Position numbers and translations under genes: made by a program. The notes under the pieces are model-generated. The model was not told the origin of the DNA. It was given only the letters and a program-made list of their open reading frames with translations, and ran no database searches. A stretch of 33,433 nt of DNA from Micavibrio aeruginosavorus (lineage in GTDB: Bacteria; Pseudomonadota; Alphaproteobacteria; Micavibrionales; Micavibrionaceae), in the NCBI GenBank assembly GCA_016184045.1, contig JACPDM010000060.1:1-33433 (forward strand). Reading direction: 5' to 3'. Below, piece after piece: positions 11,773 to 15,722 of the stretch. Numbering within the stretch: the first letter of the stretch is position 1; every line of letters begins with the position of its first letter.

Positions 11773-12522
11773 ATGAAAATGACCCCTGAAGATTTTCTCA
11801 ACTGGCCGAAAAAAGCCGTTACCGTCACCGGTATGTCCGGACTGGGCAAGACGCATATCTCCTGCATGCTGGCAAGGCATGGCTGGACGCACTATTCCTG
11901 CGACGAAGTCATCGGGACGGAATTTCTGGCGCATGAACTCGGCGGCGCGGTGACGAAGAAGAATCTGTCCCCGCTCTCCGCCTTTATCGGGAGGGTCGGC
12001 AATCCCGCGAAGGGCGGCTTGCCGCTCGATGAATTCAGGCGTCGCCAGAATCTTTATTATCAGGCGGAATGCGAGTCCCTGCGCCGGGTCGGCAATGAAA
12101 TCGCATGGGCGAAGGGGCATTTCATCAACGATTCCACCGGAAGCCTGTGCGAAATCGAGGACGACGCCCTGCTGGACGAGCTCGGGCGGCAAACCTTGTT
12201 CGTCTATATCAAAGCCAGCGCGGAGGAAGAGGCCAGAATTCTTGCGCGTGCCGTCAGCTCGCCCAAGCCGCTGTTTTTTCCGCCCGCGATGTTTGATGGA
12301 TGGCTTGCCGAATTCATGCGCCGGAATAATGCGAAGACCGCCGCGGAGATCGATCCGGATGAATTTTCGCGCTGGGCTTTTCCGCTGCTGTTCAAATCGC
12401 GGCTGCCGAAATATCAGGCCTTGGCCGACCGCTACGGCGTGACCGTTCCGTCCGAAGCGATGGCGGCAGTGAAGACGGAGCGTGATTTTATCGCCTGTAT
12501 CGCGGAGGCGCTGCGCGCATGA
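11773..12522 (+). CDS. P-loop NTPase of unknown function
   Basis: This 249-aa protein has a Walker A motif GMSGLGKTH at residues 20-28 right after a beta strand (AVTVT), and [14 protein letters not shown] near residue 115 as a possible Walker B or substrate segment. The fold suggests a small nucleotide or metabolite kinase or ATPase, but no substrate motif is recognisable. It lies between ispH and rnhA, where many alphaproteobacteria carry thrB (homoserine kinase of the APH-like fold). This protein is not ThrB, because it has a classic P-loop. It overlaps the rnhA start by ATGA, so coupling is likely. The antisense ORF 11749-12528 is a shadow. Confidence 0.8.
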
Positions 12523-12953
12523 GTGCAAGCAAGAAGGTCGAGCTGTTTACCGACGGTGCCTGCAGCGGCAATCCCGGCCCGGGCGGGTGGGGGGCGATCT
12601 TGCGCTATAACGGCGTCGAAAAGGAATTGTCGGGGGCGGAAGCCATGACAACCAATAATCGCATGGAAATGACGGCGGCGATACGCGGGCTGGAGGCGTT
12701 AAAGCGCGGCTGCGCGGTCGATCTCTACACGGACAGCCAGTATCTGCAACTGGGGGTAACTCAGTGGATGAAAGGGTGGAAAGCCAAAGGCTGGCCTGCG
12801 CGCATCAAAAATCAGGATCTGTGGAAAGAACTCGATCTCCTGCTGCAAACCCATGATGTGCGCTTCCACTGGGTCAAGGGCCACGCGGGCCATCCGGAGA
12901 ATGAACGCGCCGACCGACTCGCGACAGCAGCGATTCGCGCGATGAAAACCTGA
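12519..12953 (+). CDS. rnhA: Ribonuclease HI
   Basis: RNase HI cleaves the RNA strand of RNA-DNA hybrids, removing R-loops and primers. At 144 aa it has the usual length, and every catalytic residue is present: Asp12 ([17 protein letters not shown]), Glu50 (NNRMEMTA), Asp72 (YTDSQYL), His122 (VKGHAGH) and Asp132 (NERADRLA). The ATG overlaps the preceding gene's stop by 4 nt. It is the last gene before the regulatory-site cluster at 13004-13062. Confidence 0.96.
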
Positions 12954-13003
12954 CCGCTTCGATTCCGGCAGCGCGCATCGGGCATAATTCCAGCACTTAA
13001 ACC

Positions 13004-13012
13004 TTATCCACA
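13004..13012 (+). promoter_or_regulatory. DnaA box (perfect consensus TTATCCACA)
   Basis: An exact match to the high-affinity DnaA box lies in the 192-nt gap between rnhA and the gene at 13146. It is the only perfect one I found in this gap, so it is more likely a DnaA-controlled promoter or titration site than a full origin. Confidence 0.6.
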
Positions 13013-13015
13013 GCT

Positions 13016-13038
13016 GAATCGCCGGATTCTGGTGAATC
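13016..13038. promoter_or_regulatory. Cluster of three GANTC (CcrM methylation) sites
   Basis: GAATC at 13016, GATTC at 13025 and GAATC at 13034 occur within 23 nt, with a fourth at 12961. GANTC is expected about once per 256 nt by chance. In alphaproteobacteria GANTC is methylated by CcrM and read by GcrA, and paired sites mark cell-cycle promoters. Confidence 0.5.
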
Positions 13039-13047
13039 GGGCGCTTT

Positions 13048-13062
13048 TTAACATTCGCTTAA
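13048..13062 (+). promoter_or_regulatory. CtrA box (TTAA-N7-TTAA)
   Basis: TTAACATTCGCTTAA is a perfect full CtrA recognition sequence, and the only one I noticed in the window. It lies 83 nt before the start codon at 13146 and 35 nt after the DnaA box, a typical position for a CtrA-activated promoter or a repressed origin element. Confidence 0.55.
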
Positions 13063-13145
13063 AGTTTATTGCACATCGTGAACATAACAGCCCGCACCAA
13101 GAACAACGCAACAATCACAAACGCGGGAATAACAAGGAGGATCAC

Positions 13146-13658
13146 ATGAGCACAACAGTGACCACACCACGGATCGACGAAGATTTTTCCTATACCCCAC
13201 TCGGCGCCTCTCACACCAGCCGGATCAAGGAACGGGTCGTTCTGCCTTTGCCGCCAGCCCTCGCGGATCTGGGGGCGGGGCAGGACACCCGGTTCGAGAT
13301 GGAGATCTACGCCCGCTTCATGCGCCATCTGCGCGATGTTCCTAACAGCCGGATGGAGATCAAGATCCTGTCCGCCATCCAGTTTACGGCGGACATGCTG
13401 GAAACCCCGGATGCGCTGGTCGCCAAGACGCTGGTCGATCTTGGCCTCAAGGCGCCGCGCAAGGCTTTTCCCATGTCGTTTCTGGATTTCTGCGACAAGG
13501 CGCTGCTGCGCCGGGACTGGGACCGGCATGACGGGAAGGGCAGGCCCCCATCCGCCGTCCTGATGCTGAAGGAACACTGGGACGGGATCGGCGAGGAGAA
13601 ACCCAGCCCCTTCCCGGTGCATTACGCGGTGGCGGGCGAGAGGTTGCTCCTCAACTAG
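13146..13658 (+). CDS. Hypothetical protein, 170 aa, likely cell-cycle regulated
   Basis: The start is fixed by AAGGAGG seven bases before ATG 13146; the track's start at 13032 would translate through the CtrA box. The product is MSTTVTTPRIDEDFSYTPLG..., soluble, with a predicted helical centre (FEMEIYARFMRHLRDVPNSR; EIKILSAIQFTADML) and a C-terminal Trp/Arg region (DKALLRRDWDRHDGKGRPP). There is no signal peptide, membrane span or recognised motif. Upstream lie a DnaA box, three GANTC sites and a CtrA box, so transcription is probably tied to the cell cycle. It is convergent with the penicillin-binding protein gene, 12 nt apart. Confidence 0.7.
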   Translation: MSTTVTTPRIDEDFSYTPLGASHTSRIKERVVLPLPPALADLGAGQDTRFEMEIYARFMRHLRDVPNSRMEIKILSAIQFTADMLETPDALVAKTLVDLGLKAPRKAFPMSFLDFCDKALLRRDWDRHDGKGRPPSAVLMLKEHWDGIGEEKPSPFPVHYAVAGERLLLN

Positions 13659-13670
13659 GCCGGCAGAACG

Positions 13671-15722
13671 CTAGTCGTTGAGTTTCCAGCTTTTGGACCG
13701 GTCCCGGGTTTGCTGCGACACAGGGATCCGGGCCGGTTCAGGGGCCGGAAGATAAGCCGAGGTTTCGGCGGTTGTGGCGGGCGTAACCAGAAGGCGACGG
13801 AGGAGCCCGCCGAAATCCCCGGATAGATCCGATATATCCCCCAAGGAAGAATCGGCAGACGGAAGGGAGGAGGCCAGCCAGCCTCTTCCCTTTACGCTAT
13901 GGGCCGTGGTCATGACTTCGCGCCAGATTCGCGCCGGGATCGACCCACCGGTGACGCGCTTCATCGATGTGTTGTCGTCGTTGCCGACCCAGACGCTGGC
14001 GACGAACTGGTCGGTGAAGCCGGAGAACCACGCATCGCGGAAATCCTGCGACGTCCCGGTTTTGCCCATGGCCGGGCGGCCTAACTTCGCACCCTGTCCG
14101 GTGCCGAAATCGACCACGCCGCGCATCATGCCCTGAAGCTGCGCGATAGCCTGCGGGTCGAACATGGCGCGGCCTGATTGCTGGGCGCGGGGCGGGCGCT
14201 GGTAAATCAGTTTCCCATCCTTGTCGGTGATGCGGCGGATGGCATAGGGCTTCACGGCGTAGCCGTCATTGGCGATGGTGCCGTAGGCGGTCACCATCTG
14301 GATCATCGGCACGCCGCTGCTGCCAAGGGCAAGGCTCAAGTCGCGTTGCAGGTCGGCTTCGATGCCGAGGCGGCGGGCGGTGCCGATGACGTAGCCGATG
14401 CCGATTTCCTTCGCCAGCTTGTAGGAAATGGTGTTGAGGGAATAGGCAAGGGCGGCGTAAAGCGGGACTTCGCCGTAATATTCGCTTTTGAAGTTGGTCG
14501 GGCGGTAGCGGCCCGTGGTGATCGGCTCGTCGATGACGATGGTGTCGGGGGTGTAACCGTGCTCCAGCGCCGTCAGGTACACCACCGGCTTGAACGACGA
14601 TCCCGGCTGGCGGTAGGCTTGGGCGGCGCGGTTGAACTGGCTGGCGGCATAATCGCGCCCGCCGACCATGGCCAGAACCGCGCCGTCGCGGGCCATGACG
14701 ATGATGGCGCCCTGTGTGACGTTTTTCTCCGCGCCTTCTTCCTCAAGGGCGCGGTTCAGGGCTTCTTCCGCGACTTTCTGGATTTCGGGGACGAGGGTCG
14801 TGTCGATGACGATATCCTCGTTCGGCGTGCCGATCAGCTTGTCGAGGTCGCCCGTGACCCAGTCGGTGAAATAGCGCACGGAATCCCCGTCCGCCCCGGC
14901 GGGTTTTTCGGTTGGGATGACGACCTGTTTGAGTTCTGTTTCGGCTTCCTTGTCGGTGATGTAGCCGGCATCGCGCATCGCGCTCAGGACCGTGTCGGCG
15001 CGCTGCTGCGACAGGCGGGGGTTGCTCATCGGGGAATAGCGCGACGGGGCTTTGAGGAGTCCGGCAAGAATGGCGGCCTCGCGCAGGTTCACATCGCGCG
15101 CGGATTTCTTGAAATAGGTTTGCGCGGCGGCTTCAACGCCGTATGTGCCGGAGCCAAGGTAAACGCGGTTGAGGTAGGCGGTCAGGATTTCATCCTTGGT
15201 CAGCTTGTGCTCGAGCCAGAGGGCCAGCAGGGCTTCCTGCACCTTGCGCTTCAGTGTGCGCTCGCGGCTTAAGAAAAGATTTTTGGCAAGCTGCTGGGTG
15301 ATGGTGGAGCCGCCCTGAACCACCTTGCCTTCGATCGTGTTGCGGGCGATGGCGCGGACGAGGCCGATAGGGTCGAGGCCGAAATGGCTGTAAAAGCGGC
15401 GGTCCTCAATGGCAAGGACGGCATAGACCATGTGCTTCGGCAACTCCTCGACGCCGACATTGATGCCTTTGAGTTCGCCGTAGCGGGCTACGGCGTTGCC
15501 GTTTTCATCGTTGAGGGTGATCGCGGGCTTGCGCTCGAAGCCCGGCTTTTCGATCAGCGAAGGCAGCTCCATGGCGTACCATCCGACCAGCAGCCCCACG
15601 GCGATGCACGCCCAGATGCCGACCGCCAGCCCCCAATGCGCCATCCGCAAAAGCAGGGCCTTCAGCGAGAATTTCTTCTTGCGGGCGGATGATTTGCGTT
15701 TTGATTTGGATGTGCGGGGCAT
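13671..15722 (-). CDS. mrcA: Penicillin-binding protein 1A (class A bifunctional PBP)
   Basis: This enzyme polymerises glycan strands and cross-links peptides of peptidoglycan in the periplasm. The product is 683 aa, with a basic cytoplasmic tail (1-20), one membrane anchor (about 28-48), a GT51 glycosyltransferase domain with AIEDRRFYSHFG (Glu106) and GGSTITQQLAKN, then a transpeptidase domain with SSFKP (Ser375 nucleophile), YSLNTIS (SxN) and GKTGTSQDFRDAWF (KTG). It lacks the long PBP1A insert domain of E. coli and is nearer the shorter alphaproteobacterial type. The Pro/Ser-rich C-terminal tail looks disordered. It is transcribed alone and is convergent with the gene at 13146. The plus ORF 14178-15272 is a shadow. 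Confidence 0.93.
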   Translation of the reverse strand: MPRTSKSKRKSSARKKKFSLKALLLRMAHWGLAVGIWACIAVGLLVGWYAMELPSLIEKPGFERKPAITLNDENGNAVARYGELKGINVGVEELPKHMVYAVLAIEDRRFYSHFGLDPIGLVRAIARNTIEGKVVQGGSTITQQLAKNLFLSRERTLKRKVQEALLALWLEHKLTKDEILTAYLNRVYLGSGTYGVEAAAQTYFKKSARDVNLREAAILAGLLKAPSRYSPMSNPRLSQQRADTVLSAMRDAGYITDKEAETELKQVVIPTEKPAGADGDSVRYFTDWVTGDLDKLIGTPNEDIVIDTTLVPEIQKVAEEALNRALEEEGAEKNVTQGAIIVMARDGAVLAMVGGRDYAASQFNRAAQAYRQPGSSFKPVVYLTALEHGYTPDTIVIDEPITTGRYRPTNFKSEYYGEVPLYAALAYSLNTISYKLAKEIGIGYVIGTARRLGIEADLQRDLSLALGSSGVPMIQMVTAYGTIANDGYAVKPYAIRRITDKDGKLIYQRPPRAQQSGRAMFDPQAIAQLQGMMRGVVDFGTGQGAKLGRPAMGKTGTSQDFRDAWFSGFTDQFVASVWVGNDDNTSMKRVTGGSIPARIWREVMTTAHSVKGRGWLASSLPSADSSLGDISDLSGDFGGLLRRLLVTPATTAETSAYLPAPEPARIPVSQQTRDRSKSWKLND

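Follow-up and report, generated by a model that had tools for sequence, protein, structure and literature searches.

Is the short intergenic region ahead of an uncharacterised gene in a Micavibrio genome a cell-cycle promoter, and which of its motifs have been kept in relatives? An earlier note on this DNA had placed a DnaA box, three GANTC sites and a perfect TTAA-N7-TTAA, taken as the recognition sequences of DnaA, CcrM/GcrA and CtrA, in one short stretch before a gene starting at 13146 (here gene X), and had proposed X as a candidate new cell-cycle protein. Reading of the sequence confirmed the three kinds of motif and their positions (Table 1). The window, which is the whole stretch of 33,433 nt that was analysed, is contig 115 of a MAG of 1.93 Mb in 162 contigs that is 81% complete, and the relatives of this MAG carry the names Micavibrio and Alphaproteobacteria MAGs.

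The motifs and their setting

Both boxes are single in the window. TTATCCACA occurs once with both strands counted, and TTAACATTCGCTTAA is the only TTAA-N7-TTAA, with 0.07 copies expected in each case. The three GANTC sites lie within 23 nt, and a cluster of three such sites had a frequency of 0.001 in shuffles of the 190-nt region. In 20,000 shuffles of this region, the frequency of a perfect CtrA box was 0.002 and that of a perfect DnaA box 0.0007, and no shuffle contained a DnaA-CtrA pair at a spacing of 44 to 46 nt. The gene order ispH-(thrB-like)-rnhA-X, followed by a convergent pbp1A, was found in most relatives, and the adjacency of rnhA and X was kept in most relatives whose sequence extends to that side, a divergent family of orthologues (f3) included. 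An RNA element was considered for positions 12900 to 13250 and rejected, with no match in Rfam.

Table 1. Features at the X locus, in coordinates of the window
Feature	Position	Strand	Remarks
rnhA (ribonuclease HI)	12519..12953	+	Pfam PF00075, 8e-46; NCBIfam NF001236, 6.4e-65; gene 5' of the promoter
DnaA box TTATCCACA	13004..13012	+	44 nt start to start 5' of the CtrA-type box; spacings of 24-25, 34 and 44-45 kept in relatives
GANTC site 1 (GAATC)	13016..13020		Triple not kept in orthologous promoters
GANTC site 2 (GATTC)	13025..13029		GATTC near the same position again in the closest relatives (L001-L004, L007, L008)
GANTC site 3 (GAATC)	13034..13038		Triple not kept in orthologous promoters
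CtrA-type box TTAA-N7-TTAA TTAACATTCGCTTAA	13048..13062		Proposed -35 region; kept in orthologous promoters
Downstream element, consensus cAa..TggA..TA	13074..13086	+	Column conservation; 26-38 nt past the start of the box
Proposed -10 region; predicted transcription start	~13077-13082; near 13089	+	Putative assignment
Ribosome binding site AAGGAGG	13134..13140	+	Read directly
Gene X, 170 aa, family-less	13146..13658	+	ATG at 13146; Micavibrionales-specific among the genomes searched
Class A penicillin-binding protein (PBP1A family)	13671..15722	-	TIGR02074, 3e-181; convergent with X; neighbour kept in relatives

Conservation, spacing and specificity of the boxes

Of 58 relatives, 35 have an orthologue of X. 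Orthologues were counted at 31 named loci and, by a profile search, in 101 of the 142 genomes of the order. X was not detected at the profile threshold in 25 of 98 good-quality genomes of the order, which we counted against our best explanation. The promoters compared were those of 89 distinct orthologues outside f3, each with at least 250 nt of upstream sequence. TTAA-N7-TTAA was perfect in 75 of these promoters and present with at most one mismatch in 88, and a forward DnaA box with at most one mismatch lay in the 75 nt before the CtrA-type box in 68. The other 21 promoters, about a quarter, had no DnaA box at this threshold and within this range. When 48 upstream regions were compared with shuffles, the CtrA box was present in 40 (0.45 expected) and the DnaA box in 25 (0.06 expected), and the pair at 44 to 46 nt was present in 23 regions versus none of the shuffles. 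The intergenic sequence flanking the boxes varies widely among genera, so that the boxes stand out. Both the DnaA box and the CtrA-type box show strong conservation at the X locus throughout the order. Conservation upstream of orthologues was the test that the earlier note had set for its motifs; the two boxes withstood it, but the GANTC triple, with 4 of 88 orthologous promoters, did not.

In f3, where X has diverged to E values of about 1e-10 to 1e-20, a CtrA-type box with at most one mismatch was found at 8 of 9 orthologues. At the f3 loci L240 and L242-L248, the second half of this box is often TTAG, the greatly diverged X still follows rnhA in most cases, and the promoters carry no DnaA box. 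At L138 in genome G470, X is tandemly duplicated, with a perfect CtrA-type box at both copies and a DnaA box at one of them.

The start-to-start spacings of the best boxes in the 68 promoters were 44-45 nt in 40, 33-34 nt in 12 and 24-26 nt in 5, with gaps at 27-32 and 38-42 nt, and a DnaA box at a phased spacing from the CtrA-type box was counted in 66 of the 89 promoters. Among 38 clusters of less than 65% identity, the spacings were 44-45 (25 clusters), 33-34 (8), 24-25 (2) and others (3), with the best periodicity at a period of 10.5 (R of 0.88); because of kinship among the genomes, these spacing figures describe a pattern and are not strict probabilities, and they come from a search that took the best match per promoter, with the phasing noticed before it was tested. 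The spacing classes lie about one helical turn apart, as expected from contact along a single face of the helix.

The exact pair with 20 to 40 nt between the boxes was found in 45 of the 142 genomes of the order versus none for the reversed control. Where the surroundings of a match were read, it mostly lay between rnhA and X, and the pair loci without these neighbours (L123-L126, L129 and L136) look like chance. A scan of 19 genomes at one fixed spacing with up to two mismatches returned only X promoters at zero mismatches, nothing at one mismatch and scattered matches at two. The pair thus marks about one promoter per genome and bears no regulon signature; a regulon sharing the DnaA-CtrA architecture was sought in the fixed-spacing scan of the 19 genomes and not found. 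Perfect TTAA-N7-TTAA was not enriched genome-wide relative to the reversed control in three relatives, and the box is therefore linked to CtrA by motif identity only.

Apart from the window, only a few promoters have the GANTC triple. A GANTC site inside the CtrA spacer (TTAAGANTC) was present in 37 of 88 promoters and in 19 of the 48 upstream regions versus none of the shuffles, which the spacer's own base preferences may account for. The CtrA-type box of the window has CATTC in the spacer and so contains no spacer GANTC. In the window as a whole, GANTC is strongly under-represented, with 91 sites versus 158.7 ± 13.8 in shuffles; such depletion would be in keeping with a genome where methylation of GANTC carries information. 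The gcrA gene of the window's genome (L031) has a reverse DnaA box at -153 and GANTC sites at -135, -124 and -111 in its upstream 300 nt, a layout that resembles the DnaA box and three GANTC sites of the X promoter. Upstream of a CcrM-like methylase gene at L102 and L103, there are 8 or 9 GANTC sites in about 140 nt, with a reverse DnaA box just before the methylase start. This crowd of sites suggests methylation feedback on the methylase gene.

Protein X and the regulators

The window copy of X, with its 170 aa, had no match above the curated cut-offs of Pfam or NCBIfam and none of any kind in PHROGs, which bears out the claim that it belongs to no known family. The orthologues share the conserved core YARFMRHLR.VPnSRmeIKiLSaIQFTADM...vaK.LVdlGLRAPR.AFP. 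The structure model of X is almost all helical (pLDDT of 81.9 and pTM of 0.72), and a model made from a shorter orthologue was poorer (pLDDT of 71.7). Protein X is probably small, soluble and helical. Fold searches with X against the PDB and viral models gave nothing at an E value of ≤0.001. The spacing of residues read by eye allows a guess at a helix-turn-helix at about residues 77 to 98 (ADMMDxSDAHVAKxLVDLGL).

The C-terminal domain of GcvP (PF21478) matched 6 of 26 X proteins weakly, with a best E value of 8.6e-5. The GcvP-like stretch, at about residues 76 to 125 of X, was seen in Pfam, PDB and genome searches, and a sequence search of solved structures with X gave only glycine dehydrogenase, at an E value of 0.31. 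The likeness to the GcvP domain is local (SDxxxAKxLxDxGxxAPxxxFP, over about 50 residues), and X is small and mostly helical in the model; X is likely not a member of PF21478. A profile search of 386 genomes of the class for homologues beyond the order gave strong matches in the same family only. The other, weak matches in class genomes fell in open reading frames of about 600 to 990 aa, and two of these frames (L119 and L121) carry the GcvP motif HAPTMSFP. X is specific to the Micavibrionales among the genomes searched. A phage origin of X was rejected, with no match in 50,697 phage records.

GcrA is encoded in the MAG itself. No CtrA was found in the 81% complete MAG by a PF00486 search and no CcrM by a PF01555 search, and dnaA is missing from it as well. 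The absence of ctrA and ccrM from the genome had been named by the earlier note as grounds for discarding its proposal, and formally this absence is there. However, the MAG lacks even the essential dnaA, and the absence of all three genes therefore most likely reflects the assembly. CtrA and DnaA are encoded in the congeners G001-G003, as is a methylase of CcrM-like layout; CtrA was recognised by its DNA-binding segment and the names CtrA and CcrM are readings of the sequence, not assignments by a curated model.

A CtrA-type promoter with a phased DnaA site as the likely reading

The columns 26 to 38 nt past the start of the box are conserved, with A at position 27 in 73 of 88 promoters. If this downstream element is the -10 region, the CtrA-type box would lie over -35 with its 5' base near -41, and the DnaA box would lie at about -85 (or at -75 or -65). 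The activated ctrA P2 of Caulobacter has its full CtrA motif at -39 (PMC4287350), and most CtrA-activated promoters have a single site at -35 (PMC11264516). We consider it likely that the X promoter is a CtrA-type promoter with the box at -35 and a helically phased upstream DnaA site, and the cell cycle very probably turns X on and off. Phosphorylated CtrA would bind the -35 box and activate the transcription of X. DnaA, at a site near -85 that in other lineages lies closer by one or two turns, could touch RNA polymerase or CtrA, and this contact would add a replication-initiation signal. X would then be made during a particular part of the cell cycle. In Caulobacter promoters that combine DnaA and CtrA sites, the expression profile appears to be dominated by CtrA (PMC4287350), and for this reason we prefer activation by CtrA with modulation by DnaA, a preference that draws on position.

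For the timing of expression, the proposal of X as a cell-cycle protein is a fair inference; we saw no sign that X itself acts in the cycle. A bolder reading makes X a dedicated cell-cycle regulator of the Micavibrionales, a functional counterpart of CtrA-pathway proteins restricted to one lineage, such as SciP, and its promoter a true cooperative module in which DnaA and CtrA touch across a few turns. We regard this as possible but doubtful. If true, such a module would tie the synthesis of X to both replication initiation and CtrA activation.

The same two boxes could also work as a toggle, with repression by CtrA and activation by DnaA (or the reverse): one protein would block polymerase and the other would recruit it, and X would be made only at low CtrA. 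Caulobacter offers precedents for each half, as hemE Ps has a consensus CtrA box at -35 and is nevertheless repressed by CtrA (PMC11264516), and DnaA activates gcrA, ftsZ, mipZ and hdaA (PMC3193534). However, the strongest repression of hemE Ps needs a second CtrA site at -10, of which none was seen at the X promoter, and full CtrA motifs near -35 accompany activation (PMC4287350); we consider a toggle unlikely. It is slightly less plausible that the 15-nt palindrome is bound by a regulator other than CtrA, with only its likeness to the CtrA consensus being real. The want of genome-wide enrichment would suit such a regulator, as would the consensus of the spacer itself, G-A-T-T-C-Y-R, which is outside the CtrA consensus, but the palindrome is exactly the published full CtrA motif (PMC11264516, PMC4287350), its distance to a -10-like element is constant, and the congeners have a CtrA gene.

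A locus with both boxes might also serve as a replication origin or as a site of DnaA titration or reactivation and not as a promoter, given that the Caulobacter origin is bound by both CtrA and DnaA (PMC3193534) and that genomes carry about one copy of the pair. We hold this to be highly improbable. In the complete congener G002, the sampled GC skew stays above zero between 0 and about 1.24 Mb and below zero from 1.36 Mb onwards, with flips near 0 and 1.3 Mb, but X lies at 0.80 Mb (804 kb), in the middle of a replichore, and an origin was rejected. DnaA boxes usually number just one or two, with a conserved -10-like element further downstream and then a start codon. Every motif at the locus is short, and a chance cluster is the reading that stands for the unconserved GANTC triple; for the DnaA and CtrA-type boxes it is refuted by conservation far above that in shuffles and in the reversed-pattern control, and as an account of the locus its probability is close to nil.

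With CtrA activation modulated by DnaA as the preferred reading, the X promoter can be set beside known systems. Caulobacter promoters that combine DnaA and CtrA sites are already known (PMC4287350). A literature search turned up no fixed geometry between DnaA and CtrA sites and nothing on CtrA in Micavibrio-type bacteria. New here is one DnaA-CtrA pair at helically phased spacings, order-wide, ahead of the same uncharacterised gene. The X promoter offers a clean natural test of DnaA-CtrA cooperation through contact, and X is marked as a first gene for the study of cell-cycle control in Micavibrio-type bacteria.

As at promoters controlled by GcrA and CcrM, GANTC sites are present at X, and GcrA and CcrM-like genes are found in the genus. 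However, GANTC lies between -10 and -35 in such promoters, whereas the sites in the window are 5' of the proposed -35 region and their triple is not conserved; no conserved core-promoter GANTC was found at the X promoter. Caulobacter promoters of the ctrA P2 type share with it the same consensus, a single full site and a position near the -35 proposed for X. In contrast to these, the X promoter adds a phased upstream DnaA box, order-wide, and serves a lineage-specific gene. The DnaA motifs at -82 in podJ P2 and -83 in mipZ P2 (PMC4287350) are close to the place expected for the main spacing class at X. However, CtrA and DnaA act through different promoters at podJ, and a CtrA repressor half site is present in mipZ P2, whereas at X a full CtrA box is joined with a DnaA box in one module.
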